The notes under the pieces are model-generated. The model ran no database searches. It saw only the letters and a list, made by a program, of their open reading frames with translations, and had not been told where the DNA came from. Position numbers and translations under genes: made by a program. Source: Gemmatimonadota bacterium (lineage in GTDB: Bacteria; Latescibacterota; UBA2968; UBA8231). From it: 10,644 bases of DNA. Below, piece after piece: positions 408-5,862 of the stretch. The stretch is from contig PATE01000011.1 of the NCBI GenBank assembly GCA_002712305.1, positions 43,358 to 54,001 of the forward strand, read 5' to 3'. Position 1 is the stretch's first letter; every line of letters begins with the position of its first letter.

Positions 408-1235
408 GTGCAGTATAACCTGGCCGATCTCCATACCCATTCGACCTGCTCGGACGGGCTGCGTTCTCCAACGCAGGCAGTCGAAGAAGCCGTCGCCGCC
501 GGTGTCCGTGTACTGAGTCTGACCGACCACGACACGGTGGATGGCATCGACGAAGCCATGGCTGCGGGCAAAGAACAGGGCATCGACGTTGTGCCGGGGA
601 CCGAGTTGAGTGCTCACGTCAACGACCGCGAACTGCACCTGCTCGCTTACTTCGTCGACCATCGTTCGCAGCGACTCGCCGTCCATCTGAGCAAACTTCG
701 CGAGCGACGCCACGAGCGAGGTGCAGCGATCGTGGAACGGCTCAACCAGCTCGGCGTCCAGATCTCACTCGATGATGTCCTGTCACGGACCGATGGTGGA
801 CCGCTGGGGCGCCCTCACATTGCCGCGGCCATTGTGGCCTCCGGAGCTGCCATGAACAAGGAAGAGGCCTTCGTCCGCTTCATTGGCGATCGAAGACCTG
901 CCGACGTGCCGAAACCCCGGTCTCCAGCTGCAGAAGTGATTGGCTTGGTCCACGAATTGGGTGGTGTTGCCGTGCTCGCCCATCCGGGAATGGTCGTGTC
1001 GGAACCGGTGATACAACAACTGGTCGAGGTCGGCCTTGATGGGGTGGAGGTCTACCATCCGGCTCATCAGCCACCTCAGATCGAGCACTATCTTGATGTG
1101 GCTGAGCGCTTCGGATTGCTCACATCCGGAGGCTCCGACAGTCATGGCGACCAGAGCGGCGTCGCCATCGGCGACTATGGCATCGGTGTAGAAGCCGTCG
1201 ACGCCCTCAGCATGCGAGCCGCCACATATGCGTGA
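408..1235 (+). CDS. PHP domain metal-dependent phosphoesterase (YciV/TrpH-like)
   Basis: This 275-residue protein has a complete PHP (polymerase and histidinol phosphatase) fold. Visible metal-site motifs are DLHTHSTCSDG at residues 7-17, TDHD at 39-42, GTE at 64-66, GRPH at 134-137, LAHPG at 190-194 and GSDSHG at 242-247. This order and length match the YciV/TrpH group. Its characterised members hydrolyse 3',5'-nucleotide bisphosphates or degrade RNA 5' to 3' (RNase AM), so a soluble cytoplasmic nuclease or nucleotide phosphatase is the best guess. The GTG at 408 is chosen because it puts the HTH motif about nine residues from the N-terminus, as in the family. Upstream, the frame is open only back to a TGA at 348 and has no ATG. 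No clear Shine-Dalgarno is visible. The end overlaps the next gene by 8 bases. The exact substrate is not determinable. Confidence 0.9.
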   Translation: MQYNLADLHTHSTCSDGLRSPTQAVEEAVAAGVRVLSLTDHDTVDGIDEAMAAGKEQGIDVVPGTELSAHVNDRELHLLAYFVDHRSQRLAVHLSKLRERRHERGAAIVERLNQLGVQISLDDVLSRTDGGPLGRPHIAAAIVASGAAMNKEEAFVRFIGDRRPADVPKPRSPAAEVIGLVHELGGVAVLAHPGMVVSEPVIQQLVEVGLDGVEVYHPAHQPPQIEHYLDVAERFGLLTSGGSDSHGDQSGVAIGDYGIGVEAVDALSMRAATYA

Positions 1236-2952
1236 ATTGCCGGACGGTGGTGACCGCTGGGTGCGTCCCCCTCTGGTTCTGATCCTCGCTCTTCAGGTCA
1301 TCTCACTTCTGGCGGTGACCTCGGCGCCCACCTCGGCGCTGTTGCCCCGGTCCTTCCATCCTTCCCAGGATCCGCCCCTGAGTGGCCTGGTAGGCACGAG
1401 CATGAGTGATGTCGTGTGGAGCGGACACTATCTGTGGGTTGCCACCGAGCGCGGTCTGGCGCGGTGGAATCCTGACGATGGAACCGGACTGTCGGCCCAG
1501 AACTGGCGTACCTACACCCAGGAAAATGGTTTGGGACGCGGTGCGGTCAGTGCGCTGGACGCGGTGGGCGACACGGTGTGGGCAGCGACGATCTTCGACA
1601 CCCTCGTCGCGGGCGTCACTCCCCCACCCCAGGTGGGCGGCGGCCTGAGTTGGTCTATCGATGCGGGCGAGACGTGGCAGCACATCCCCAACGACGCCAT
1701 TTTTGACACACTGACACCGGGCTTCGAAGACGGACCACGGACACCGGTGCAGAACGGCTGCTTTGGGCTGTCCATCGTGGGCGATACGGTTTGGGCGGCC
1801 TTCTTCTCAGGCTCCACCGTCCGCACAACGGACTTTGGCCGCAGTTGGGAGCGTGTGTTGCCCGGTGGCGGCGACCAGATCGTGTTCCTGGCCACCGACA
1901 AAGAAGAAGAGGTGGGGCTTCTCCGCTTCGAAGCCGACAGTCTGGCGAGTTCCGGTGGTGATGCGATGCGGATCGATTCCTTGCGAACCGCCGCCGACAG
2001 CGTCGCCACCCTTCATCTGCTGCACCGCACATTCTCGGTTACGGCCTTCGGTGACACGGTTTGGATCGGCACCTCGAATGGGCTGACGTCGAGCACCGAC
2101 TTCGGTCAAACCTGGGTGAATCATCGCGTGCGCCTCAACGAATTCGGTGAACCCTTACCAGAGAACCCGTCAGGCAATTGGGCGGTGGCTGTCGAACGAC
2201 AGATCACGCAGGATGGGCGTTCGGTCATCTGGGCGGGAACGTCGACCACCATCGGACCCGGACAGAGGAATGGGATCAGTGTCAGCGAAGATGGCGGCGC
2301 GACATGGGCCTCGACGGCGCCCACCTTCGCCTGGGATTTCGCGTTTGGCCCGCAGGATACGGTCTGGGCGGGCACCAATGACGGACTGCTGGTCAGCCTC
2401 GACGCCGGAGATTCGTGGGGGGAGGTGCTGGTGGAAGATCCCTTCACTCGTGAACAGCTTCGCCCGCCTTTCATCGGCGTAACCCATGTGCCCCTGAGCG
2501 ACGGGCAGAATTCCATCTGGTCAGGAGCCGACAATGGGTTGGGTCGATCCATCGATGGTGGTGTCACGTGGACGATCCTCAGCTTCCCCGTCAAAACACC
2601 AAGTCTTGATGTGGGCGAGGTCATTGGCGAAGGAGGTGTTGTCGATGCCGAACGGGTACGCACCTATGCTGCGCCGAATCCTTTTGCACCCGACCAGGGA
2701 GATCGAGATCGATGCCGCATCGTCTACAGTTTGAGCGAACCCAGTCAGGTGACGATCGAAATCTTCGACTTCGCATCACGACAGGTGCGATCTCTTCTCG
2801 AGGGCGCCGATCGCGATGGGGAACGCAATCACGGTGAGAACTGGGATGGTCTCGATGACGAGGGAAACCCTGTTGCCAACGGTGTCTATTTCTATCGAAT
2901 CGCCACCGCCGCCGGCGATGAAGCACACGGCAAGATTGTGGTCCTAGACTGA
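1228..2952 (+). CDS. Exported beta-propeller protein with BNR/Asp-box-like repeats and C-terminal FlgD-like Ig domain
   Basis: This 574-residue protein starts with basic and hydrophobic segments (about residues 11-38) that look like a signal peptide. The body has about seven degenerate repeats of the form 'D-TVW-GT-NGL--S-D-G-TW', at roughly residues 60-84, 105-158, 180-208, 270-300, 320-358, 368-396 and 412-450. Examples are GDTVWIGTSNGL, STDFGQTW and SEDGGATW. This fits a sialidase/sortilin-type propeller with Asp-box loops. Residues about 480-574 form a FlgD-like Ig domain, from AAPNPFAP through WDGLDDEGNPVANGVYFYRI to KIVVLD. In FCB-group bacteria this domain often ends exported or surface proteins. 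No catalytic residues are recognised; a ligand-binding or surface role is inference. The ATG at 1228 lies inside the end of the PHP gene, and the TGA overlaps the ATG of the next gene. Confidence 0.82.
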   Translation: MRELPDGGDRWVRPPLVLILALQVISLLAVTSAPTSALLPRSFHPSQDPPLSGLVGTSMSDVVWSGHYLWVATERGLARWNPDDGTGLSAQNWRTYTQENGLGRGAVSALDAVGDTVWAATIFDTLVAGVTPPPQVGGGLSWSIDAGETWQHIPNDAIFDTLTPGFEDGPRTPVQNGCFGLSIVGDTVWAAFFSGSTVRTTDFGRSWERVLPGGGDQIVFLATDKEEEVGLLRFEADSLASSGGDAMRIDSLRTAADSVATLHLLHRTFSVTAFGDTVWIGTSNGLTSSTDFGQTWVNHRVRLNEFGEPLPENPSGNWAVAVERQITQDGRSVIWAGTSTTIGPGQRNGISVSEDGGATWASTAPTFAWDFAFGPQDTVWAGTNDGLLVSLDAGDSWGEVLVEDPFTREQLRPPFIGVTHVPLSDGQNSIWSGADNGLGRSIDGGVTWTILSFPVKTPSLDVGEVIGEGGVVDAERVRTYAAPNPFAPDQGDRDRCRIVYSLSEPSQVTIEIFDFASRQVRSLLEGADRDGERNHGENWDGLDDEGNPVANGVYFYRIATAAGDEAHGKIVVLD

Positions 2953-3944
2953 TGTCATGCCTGATACAACCTCCGCTGCGAAACCACACGGCACGACATC
3001 GACCCTCGCTCCTGCTGAGTGTGCTCGCCGTCGTCCTCAGTTCTGCCGCCACGGCACAGACCGGTGCGGCCTTCCTCGATCTGGGGATCGGCGGTCGCGC
3101 TATGGGCATGGGTGGAGCCCTGAGCACCCACGCTTCAGGTGCTGAGGCCATTCACTACAACCCCGCAGGTCTGGCCGGTGAACAGGGCCGAACGGTGCAG
3201 GTCGGTTCCCAGTCCCTGTCACTGGATCGCACGCATGCGACGCTTGCGGGCGCCATGAATCTCCGTGGGGGGCTGGCCTTTGGGCTGGCTTGGACCCATG
3301 CCAGCGCCGGACCCATTGACGCACGAACCGGTTCGGGAGATCTGGTCGCGGGGGGCATCGACGACACCGAACAGGCCATCGGATTCGCTTTGGGATCTCG
3401 TGTGAACGAGAAAGTACTACTCGGTGCGAGTCTGAAGGTGCTGAGTCACACCATCGATGTACCTGGCTCAGGCGAGTCGAGTGCGTCGGGTAGAGCCGTC
3501 GACATTGGTGCCATCATCGTCGAGGCGATACCCCAGTGGCGTGTCGCGGTGGGTGCTCGCAATCTGCTGGGGAAACTGGCCTGGGATGTTCGTCGTGCTG
3601 CCGCCCAGTCGAGCGCCTCGGAAGATGATCTGCCGATGACACCCTACGTGGGCGTCGGCGGTACGTGGCGACGCGTACGAATTGGGGCTGAGGCTCAACT
3701 CTATGATGTGAGCGGTGTCTCCCAGGCTCGTCTTCACGCGGGAGCTGAAGCCGACCTGTCTCCCATGCTGTCGGTACGTGGCGGCCTGCACCGGGTGGGT
3801 GACGCAGACGGACTCGGGCTGCTTGCCATGGGCATTTCGATTCGCCCGATGCACAGCAACCGTCTGGCCTTTCACTATGCGTGGGTCGCCGACGATCTGA
3901 GTGCCGGTGGCCGCAGTGTGCTCAGTATTGGGGGCGTGTTTTGA
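2952..3944 (+). CDS. PorV/PorQ family outer-membrane beta-barrel protein (first copy)
   Basis: This 330-residue protein has an N-terminal signal peptide: a basic region, a hydrophobic stretch at residues 19-33, and a probable cut after ATAQ at 36. The mature N-terminus carries the family hallmark 'GAAFLDLGIGGRAMGMGGA', followed by HYNPAGL. Alternating amphipathic strands fill the rest, and the last residue is Phe (IGGVF), the usual BAM-recognised ending of outer-membrane barrels. PorV in Bacteroidota shuttles type IX secretion substrates to the sortase, but the wider family in other phyla is mostly uncharacterised. The start ATG shares one base with the TGA of the propeller gene (TGATG), and the stop shares one base with the next start, so translation is probably coupled. 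Barrel identity is solid; function in secretion is inference from the family and the neighbour. Confidence 0.85.
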   Translation: MSCLIQPPLRNHTARHRPSLLLSVLAVVLSSAATAQTGAAFLDLGIGGRAMGMGGALSTHASGAEAIHYNPAGLAGEQGRTVQVGSQSLSLDRTHATLAGAMNLRGGLAFGLAWTHASAGPIDARTGSGDLVAGGIDDTEQAIGFALGSRVNEKVLLGASLKVLSHTIDVPGSGESSASGRAVDIGAIIVEAIPQWRVAVGARNLLGKLAWDVRRAAAQSSASEDDLPMTPYVGVGGTWRRVRIGAEAQLYDVSGVSQARLHAGAEADLSPMLSVRGGLHRVGDADGLGLLAMGISIRPMHSNRLAFHYAWVADDLSAGGRSVLSIGGVF

Positions 3945-4822
3945 TGCGTTTCCTGCTTGGTTGGGTGATGGTGTGTGCGTTGATGACCGGTACGCCGACG
4001 TTGGCCACGACGGGGTTTGCCTTTTTGCGACTGGGTGAGGGCGCCCGGGATGCCGCCATGGGAGACGCAACCGTCGCCGTGACCAGTTACACCGCCGACG
4101 CTGCCAATCCTGCGGCGCTGACTCGCGGTCAGCAGGCGCTGACCTTCAGCCACACAGAGTGGATCGAGCAGATCCGGCATGAGTATGTGGGCACGCTGTG
4201 GAGTATCGGAGAGGACGTGATCGCCCTCAGCGCACGTGTCTCGCATACGGACGGTCTGGAACATCGCGTCGGTGCGTCACTCGAACCACTGGGTGAGTTC
4301 GGTGTGTATGAGTGGACGGCAGGCGCCGCCTGGTCACACGCCTTTTCGCAGGACCTGCGGCTGGGGGTGGGCCTACGATTCGTGCGCCAGTCGATCTTCG
4401 ATGAAGCGGCAAGTGGGGGTCACGCCGATGCGGGTCTGTTGTATCGGGCTGCCGGTTGGGACCTGGGGATTTCGGTTCGCAATGTAGGTACCATGAACGA
4501 ATTGAACCGCGTCTCCACCGAACTGCCTCTTCAGTTGCGCGTGGGAGGCGCTCGTCGCCACGGGAAGATCCTGTTCGCCGCGGCGGGCCATTGGTCCGAT
4601 GCGAGCACAGATCTGCACGCGGGTGTCGAGTGGGCAGCACGTGAACATCTGAACCTTCGTCTCGGCTACGACAGTGGTGGCACCCGTGGGCTCAGCTACG
4701 GCGCGGGTGTGGAGTTGGCCCCCTGGCGGGTAGACTATGCCTATCTGCCCTTTGGTGACGGATTCGGCCCGGCTCACAGATTCAGCTTGCGCTGGGCAGT
4801 CGACACGGTGCCTGCGCGGTGA
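3944..4822 (+). CDS. PorV/PorQ family outer-membrane beta-barrel protein (second copy)
   Basis: This 292-residue paralogue of the preceding gene starts at the ATG at 3944, which overlaps the upstream TGA and opens a standard signal peptide (MRFLLGWVMVCALMTGTPTL, cut near residue 22). An in-frame ATG at 3881 would add 21 residues without signal character and overlap the neighbour by 64 bases, so it is rejected. A GGGGG run about 9 bases upstream may act as a weak ribosome site. The mature start 'GFAFLRLGEGARDAAMGDA' and ANPAAL match the first copy's hallmark. The C-terminus has a barrel-like last strand (HRFSLRW), but unlike copy 1 it is followed by a seven-residue polar tail. The two are diverged, so the duplication is old. 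A role as partner barrel to copy 1 or to the propeller protein is inference. Confidence 0.83.
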   Translation: MRFLLGWVMVCALMTGTPTLATTGFAFLRLGEGARDAAMGDATVAVTSYTADAANPAALTRGQQALTFSHTEWIEQIRHEYVGTLWSIGEDVIALSARVSHTDGLEHRVGASLEPLGEFGVYEWTAGAAWSHAFSQDLRLGVGLRFVRQSIFDEAASGGHADAGLLYRAAGWDLGISVRNVGTMNELNRVSTELPLQLRVGGARRHGKILFAAAGHWSDASTDLHAGVEWAAREHLNLRLGYDSGGTRGLSYGAGVELAPWRVDYAYLPFGDGFGPAHRFSLRWAVDTVPAR

Positions 4823-5862
4823 ATCTCTGGCGCCGAGAACCGACGCCGCCTCCGATACGGCCGCCAGCGATGACGGACGGATGGGGAACACATCGACAGG
4901 GGCTTGGCTCCGGATTCACCGGCTGGGAACCGACGCCGCAGCCGGCCAAGCAGAGCCATCCGGCCATGCACGTGTTGTTGTTCGTCCTGACGTTGTTTTC
5001 CATGATGGCCGCTGGATCGATGCAGCAGGGCGTGAATCCCCTGCAAGGCCTGGATCAGCTCGTTCATCTTGTGGAAGGCTGGCCCTTCGCCTCCACGTTG
5101 TTGGCGATTCTGACCGTACATGAGTTCGGCCACTACTTCGCCGCACGTCGCTGGGGGGTGAAAGCCTCCCTCCCCTACTTCCTGCCCCTGCCCTTCGTCT
5201 CGTTCCTCGGCACCCTCGGTGCGGTAATCCGCATCCGCTCGCCGATTCCAAACAAACAAGCCCTGCTGGATATCGGCGCTGCCGGACCCCTGTCGGGCTT
5301 CGTCGTCGCTGTGACCGCCTGCATCGTGGGCCTGCCACTGTCGACGGTCGTCGAACCAGGCTATTTCGGTGTCCTGCCACGCCAGTTGGAGCCCACCACG
5401 ATTCAGCTAGGCGCGCCGTTGCTGTTCCAGGGCCTGTCTGCATGGTTGTCGCCAGAGGTGATCGCTGAGGATCAGATGGTGATTCTCCATCCCATCGCTT
5501 TCGCAGGATGGGTTGGACTCTTCATCACCGCCTTCAATCTTTTTCCGGTGGGTCAGCTCGACGGTGGACACATCGTGTACGCTCTGGCCTCTCGAGCCCA
5601 CAGCATGATCGGGCGATTCACGTTCTCAGCCTTGATGGGTCTGGGGCTCTACGGTGTATTCTCTCTGTTTTGGGAAGTTCCCGCAGGGTGGCCTGGGTGG
5701 TTGGTGCTTGCCTTGCTGCTCACTTTTTTCGGTCGCAGCCATCCACCCCTTTATCATCCAGCGACGTCTCTGAGTCCAGGCAGACGATGGATTGGATGGC
5801 TTTGCTTTCTGGTGTTCGCCCTGTGTTTCACGCCAGCCCCCTTCAGCGCCCTCGCCGGTTGA
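4819..5862 (+). CDS. Site-2 protease family (M50) intramembrane metalloprotease
   Basis: This 347-residue polytopic membrane protein cleaves, by family precedent, transmembrane substrates within the membrane. The zinc site is complete: HEFGH at residues 101-105 in a hydrophobic helix, and NLFPVGQLDGGH at 240-251, supplying the third ligand Asp248. 'LLDIGAAGPLSGF' and 'HPIAFAGWVGLF' are typical of the soluble-PDZ-free S2P subgroup found in cyanobacteria and several candidate phyla. About eight hydrophobic segments are visible, near residues 51-67, 91-108, 116-135, 147-170, 226-245, 265-285, 290-303 and 326-345. A Pro-rich, cytosolic-looking segment of about 49 residues precedes the first. The GTG at 4819 overlaps the previous stop (GTGA); ATG at 4870 or 4966 are alternative starts. 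No PDZ domain and no anti-sigma factor are seen nearby, so the substrate is unknown. Confidence 0.88.
   Translation: MNLWRREPTPPPIRPPAMTDGWGTHRQGLGSGFTGWEPTPQPAKQSHPAMHVLLFVLTLFSMMAAGSMQQGVNPLQGLDQLVHLVEGWPFASTLLAILTVHEFGHYFAARRWGVKASLPYFLPLPFVSFLGTLGAVIRIRSPIPNKQALLDIGAAGPLSGFVVAVTACIVGLPLSTVVEPGYFGVLPRQLEPTTIQLGAPLLFQGLSAWLSPEVIAEDQMVILHPIAFAGWVGLFITAFNLFPVGQLDGGHIVYALASRAHSMIGRFTFSALMGLGLYGVFSLFWEVPAGWPGWLVLALLLTFFGRSHPPLYHPATSLSPGRRWIGWLCFLVFALCFTPAPFSALAG
4837..4939 (+). repeat. Pair of 13-base direct repeats 90 bases apart
   Basis: GAACCGACGCCGC occurs at 4837-4849 and again at 4927-4939, in the same reading frame of the M50 gene and 30 codons apart. It encodes EPTPPP and EPTPQP in the Pro-rich N-terminal segment. 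The sequence between the copies is not repeated. This could be a remnant of duplication or convergent Pro-rich coding. Confidence 0.6.

Follow-up and report, generated by a model that had tools for sequence, protein, structure and literature searches.

The window analysed here, a stretch of 10,644 nucleotides (C32:43358-54001) from a Latescibacterota MAG (4.77 Mb in 146 contigs), contains three consecutive forward-strand genes, which we refer to as PROP (1228..2952, +), POR1 (2952..3944, +) and POR2 (3944..4822, +). PROP encodes a predicted exported protein of 574 aa with a seven-bladed beta-propeller and a C-terminal FlgD/type IX-like domain, and the two genes behind it encode outer-membrane barrels of the PorV/PorQ family, POR1 with a FadL fold. 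Both the PROP/POR1 and the POR1/POR2 junction read TGATG, one base being common to each pair, just as the one-base stop/start overlaps of the three open reading frames had been described in a previous sequence-only reading of this DNA. The PHP gene upstream overlaps PROP by 8 nt, and a gene of the M50 site-2 protease family downstream (4819..5862, +; PF02163, 83.3 bits), a frequent neighbour whose link to the trio is uncertain, overlaps POR2 by 4 nt. Two small lipoprotein-like genes follow in the window between positions 5862 and 7344; they match no recognised family, and homologues of both are found close to the M50 gene in further families of Latescibacterota (L335, L339 and L340). The closest relatives of PROP were found in Latescibacterota MAGs, some of them labelled Gemmatimonadetes, with 79% identity to the copy in JABJJN010000024. 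The trio is real, strongly conserved and built from known parts, and it is undescribed in the available open-licence literature, including that on the PorV/PorQ family and on type IX systems in these phyla.

The N-terminal hydrophobic stretch of PROP (1270..1344, +; residues about 15-39, boundaries approximate) is a predicted Sec signal peptide without lipobox and coincides with a helix at residues 16-31 of the AF2 model (pLDDT 78.9, pTM 0.78), which further consists of a propeller (1384..2580, +; aa about 53-451, from structure-aligned ranges) and a beta-sandwich. Within the propeller, a two-helix insertion (1888..2022, +; aa 221-265, helices in the AF2 model) was seen in the window's family only and is mostly gapped in the aligned PROP sequences of other phyla. 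A BNR match (27.4 bits) was obtained, and in a Foldseek search with the model BT4663-type sensors lead, with PorZ (5m11) at rank 10 (E 2.8e-12). Structure matches of the propeller reach Z scores of about 25-26, and since many unrelated propellers come near 25, the fold of PROP alone says little. The C-terminal domain (2659..2949, +) contains YAAPNPF ... WDG ... VANGVYFYR ... GKIVVLD with invariant residues, scores 28.2 bits against FlgD_ig over aa 497-562 (cut-off 27) and 17.8 bits, below the cut-off of 23, against the T9SS type A tail model TIGR04183. This Ig domain lies at the extreme C-terminus, its PNPF and GVYFY motifs also occur in the tails of PorU and PorZ, and PorU (6za2) was matched. 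Thus, the predicted exported propeller with a FlgD-like Ig end that had been recognised earlier is borne out, this end being a type IX-style tail.

The same reading had taken PROP to be cargo, a designation that the data do not support. PROP is a single-copy orthologue in 25/25 genomes of the window's family, mostly at full length with a few copies cut by contig ends, and across phyla its tail is more conserved than its propeller (41% versus 31%). Moreover, PROP tails group together in one clade, distinct from the tails of PorZ and of cargo (support 100/99 in a tree of 70 tails calculated from 96 columns, which are few). The last residue is D, N, Q or E in 91/96 PROP copies, some genomes being counted twice, and K or R in 23/30 other tails of the window's genome. 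Single-copy occurrence, a conserved tail and a tail clade of its own therefore make PROP look less like an exchangeable secretion product than like a fixed component. One KSB1 genome carries a tandem pair of PROP copies (L163:9992-12979).

Both barrels are relatives of PorV by profile, in line with the earlier assignment to the PorV/PorQ family, and neither is a canonical PorV or PorQ. Against the subfamily model PorV_fam NF033709 (cut-off 90 bits) POR2 scores above the cut-off with 130.9 bits and POR1 below it with 82.8 bits, and sequence profiles matched 6h3i_F, which is PorV in the translocon of F. johnsoniae, with E values of 1.2e-4 for POR1 and 2e-13 for POR2. Scores against the equivalog models remained far lower than required, with 16.4 (POR1) and 47.1 bits (POR2) for PorV (cut-off 250) and 42.9 and 70.2 bits, respectively, for PorQ (cut-off 220). 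The AF2 model of POR1 (pLDDT 88.9) has PorV 6h3i_F as its best match (Z 31.0, rmsd 3.6, 285 aligned), a tie with FadL at Z 30.1; sequence profile and predicted fold together support the placement of POR1 in the PorV/PorQ family. A tree built from 72 barrels resolves POR1 (support 100/98), POR2 (96/99) and PorV as three separate clades, each spanning phyla. A link to BamI or BamG, considered on the basis of weak profile matches, was dropped, as BamI matched at chance level and POR1 and POR2 of the window had no BamG match. The window's genome also encodes a BamG-like barrel (C84:51051-52379, L102) scoring 60.8 bits, under the cut-off of 250.

For a comparison across phyla, 80 loci were kept from 401 candidates chosen by PROP alone, the sample lying outside Bacteroidota proper. 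The order PROP-POR1-POR2 on one strand was found in 73/80 loci, and since the relatives had been picked by PROP alone, this is more than chance. Six of the remaining seven loci end at a contig edge, and the seventh (L178) extends about 1.9 kb beyond POR1 without POR2; one or two genes separate PROP from POR1 in four loci. Among the record titles of the loci are Latescibacterota, KSB1, Calditrichota, Ignavibacteria, Marinimicrobia and Electryonea, and the recurrent adjacency, whose lack would have weakened the proposal of the sequence-only reading, is thus confirmed for several phyla. In distant loci (L146-L203) a further gene, here termed gene X, was present near PROP in 53/58 cases, usually directly upstream, with a lipobox-like motif in 32/53 and a choice-of-anchor X match in all four examples scanned. 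In the window's family the PHP gene takes this place, and gene X was not seen beside PROP.

The two barrel genes differ in how they are retained together with PROP. In about 13 Latescibacterota loci (families f2-f5 and f9) POR2 is kept, while PROP and POR1 are both missing at the locus, and in families f6, f7, f8 and f10 PROP and POR1 are kept, as is POR2. No copies of PROP were found elsewhere in the PROP-less genomes of f2-f4, the absence of POR1 referring to the locus only. The presence of POR1 at the locus thus follows that of PROP, an indication that POR1 is the barrel more closely associated with it. The M50 gene lies next to POR2 in most of the PROP-less Latescibacterota loci, and in 11 distant loci it is found close to the trio.

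The sequence-only reading would also have seen its proposal weakened by a genome-wide lack of T9SS core genes, but SprA and PorU were found above cut-off outside the window. SprA is located on contig C91 (658 bits, cut-off 200; SprA_N 130.5 bits), and two PorU genes with a C25 peptidase domain scored 670 and 607 bits (cut-off 420). Profile matches further identified a PorZ-like gene directly upstream of PorU in two neighbour pairs (C52:43320-49318 and C57:19507-25600; L091 and L092), with scores of 209 and 197 bits, under the PorZ cut-off of 260, and the PorZ N-terminal propeller domain PF21544 is present in the PorZ-like gene of this genome. About 69 FlgD_ig matches, the PorZ and PorU tails among them, and 10 PorV_fam matches were counted genome-wide. 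From the PorK/L/M/N energy and ring module, GldM gave zero matches in the genome search, the controls being silent too, and GldK matched genome-wide only below cut-off. Because SprA, PorU, PorZ-like genes and FlgD-type tails were found, a type IX system is, as judged from these profile matches, present in partial form in this genome. Additional PorU-like fragments lie on C40 and C87, and near-identical segments occur on C83 and C113, which could mean that strain duplicates are present in the assembly. At two further sites (C36:19287-25539 and C19:17579-25205; L095 and L098) a protein with a type IX-like tail adjoins a PorV-family barrel, and these units, possibly further tail-barrel pairs, lie beside a further large gene whose end resembles that of a TonB-dependent receptor.

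SprA was above cut-off in 61/64 phylum genomes and in 37/40 distant genomes tested, and because it is so common in these phyla, its co-occurrence with the trio is by itself weak evidence for a connection. SprA is also present without PROP in sister families; type IX export therefore does not require the trio. The genes of the known attachment complex, in turn, lie apart from the trio. Among 28 genomes searched, PorZ exceeded its NCBIfam cut-off of 260 bits in 16, and separate PorZ-like matches were found in 25/25 PROP-positive genomes examined; a genome not counted among them (G049) contains the trio and a weak and partial PorZ match. No PorZ-like gene was found in G027 and G030, which are both complete and PROP-negative. 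In G101 canonical PorV (279 bits), PorQ (235 bits) and PorZ (378 bits) all score over their cut-offs and are all distinct from its trio, and in the genomes examined canonical PorV has a gene of its own. PROP itself scores only 13.6 bits against the PorZ model (cut-off 260), the match being limited to the tail region.

Taken together, these results suggest that the trio is probably a hitherto undescribed standing part of the surface machinery and not disposable cargo. The reading that we favor, with moderate confidence, is that PROP is exported through SprA, held at the surface by a barrel and kept there as a part of the machine. PROP would cross the envelope by Sec and subsequently, via its C-terminal domain, by SprA. 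This domain would then be captured and kept at the surface by a PorV-type barrel of its own, for which POR1, assisted by POR2, is the likeliest candidate. The propeller would thereby stay on display as a lasting component of a complex in the outer membrane, with an architecture similar to that of PorZ and PorQ but existing alongside them. There it would probably bind a glycan or a protein at the cell surface, a guess by analogy with PorZ. This reading is built on the domains and folds of the three proteins, the gene order and its distribution, the separate ancestry of tails and barrels and the presence of SprA, PorU and PorZ-like genes elsewhere in the assembly. Weighing against it are the occurrence of SprA without PROP in sister families, the TIGR04183 score of the tail below cut-off, the fold of POR1, which resembles FadL as much as PorV, the commonness of SprA in these phyla and the few columns of the tail tree.

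Alternatively, PROP might be an ordinary secreted or displayed product with the two barrels as its private shuttles, similar to PorP/SprF for type B substrates, as the earlier notion of a cargo-plus-shuttle unit implied. Much of that notion stands, namely the type IX genes SprA and PorU, the tail, the PorV relatives and the recurrent adjacency, but the data do not support the cargo status of PROP. The tail of PROP and the adjacency of the genes are in agreement with private shuttles, as are the neighbouring tail and PorV-family genes elsewhere in the window's genome and the type B tails of Flavobacterium johnsoniae, which are served by cognate barrels from adjacent genes that may also anchor or locate the substrate (PMC12618676). 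The sole difference from the favored reading is whether PROP is released or kept. Since PROP is ancient, occurs in single copy and has its tail as the best conserved part, the trio fits a component with a retained tail better than a substrate with private barrels, and we therefore regard release of a phylum-crossing PROP as unlikely.

The trio could also be unrelated to type IX secretion and represent a pair of FadL-like transporters with a periplasmic propeller carrying a generic Ig domain. This would be consistent with the tie between FadL folds and PorV for POR1, with the wide occurrence of the FlgD Ig fold, and with a co-occurrence that is to be expected when SprA is near-universal in these phyla. 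However, the Ig domain is placed at the extreme C-terminus and has PNPF and GVYFY motifs in common with the tails of PorU and PorZ, and the sequence profiles of POR1 and POR2 point to PorV, all of which makes this explanation quite improbable. A further alternative equates the trio with PorZ-PorQ-PorV of the known attachment complex, as represented in this lineage. The like build of a type IX-tailed propeller with two PorV/PorQ-family barrels and the high rank of PorZ (5m11) in the fold search with PROP might suggest this, but the idea was dropped once separate PorZ, PorV and PorQ genes had turned up. With a separate PorZ-like gene in each of the 25 PROP-positive genomes examined, the window's genome having its own upstream of PorU with the PorZ propeller domain, and with the distinct canonical set of G101, it is very improbable and largely refuted; if it holds anywhere, it would be in lineages such as Latescibacterota, the separate canonical PorQ being that of G101.

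Returning to the retained component that we favor, a more far-reaching version, which we put forward only tentatively, is that of an ancient FCB surface complex acting as a second attachment or quality-control station beside PorU-PorZ. Such a station would comprise PROP with two PorV-type barrels of its own and, in lineages other than the window's family, the exported product of the upstream gene X, and would have its own class of non-cleaved sorting tails. The type IX literature considered here describes a Bacteroidota system with one attachment complex, and a cross-phylum trio beside PorU-PorZ points to a further, unstudied surface component. The trio also offers a test of whether each barrel of the PorV family has its own partner tail, and may help to explain the abundance of PorV/PorQ-like genes without assigned role in these genomes.

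Several known systems resemble the trio in part. BamG, a FadL-like subunit of the Bacteroidota BAM complex, has its fold class in common with POR1 (9n2d_B and 9hjm_F, Z 26.7), but the fold score is lower, POR1 and POR2 lack a BamG profile match, and the genome has a separate BamG-like gene. With the PorV shuttle of the SprA translocon (6h3i_F), POR1 and POR2 share the fold and detectable sequence similarity, although each forms a distinct clade. In the type B system of F. johnsoniae the gene of a secreted protein adjoins that of its own PorP/SprF-like barrel, as in the trio (PMC12618676). In contrast, the tail of PROP is type A/FlgD-like and the trio barrels belong by profile to the PorV family, and PROP is a conserved single-copy gene, whereas type B substrates are known or predicted adhesins. 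The closest likeness is to PorZ-PorQ and PorU-PorV of Porphyromonas gingivalis, in which a surface propeller or sortase retains an uncleaved type IX tail and is held by a FadL-fold barrel of the PorV/PorQ family (PMC5562754; PMC8545088). Compared with the two-propeller build of PorZ, PROP has one propeller in its model and no match to the N-terminal propeller domain PF21544, and unlike PorZ with PorQ, it is encoded together with two barrels of its own in genomes where separate PorZ genes coexist.
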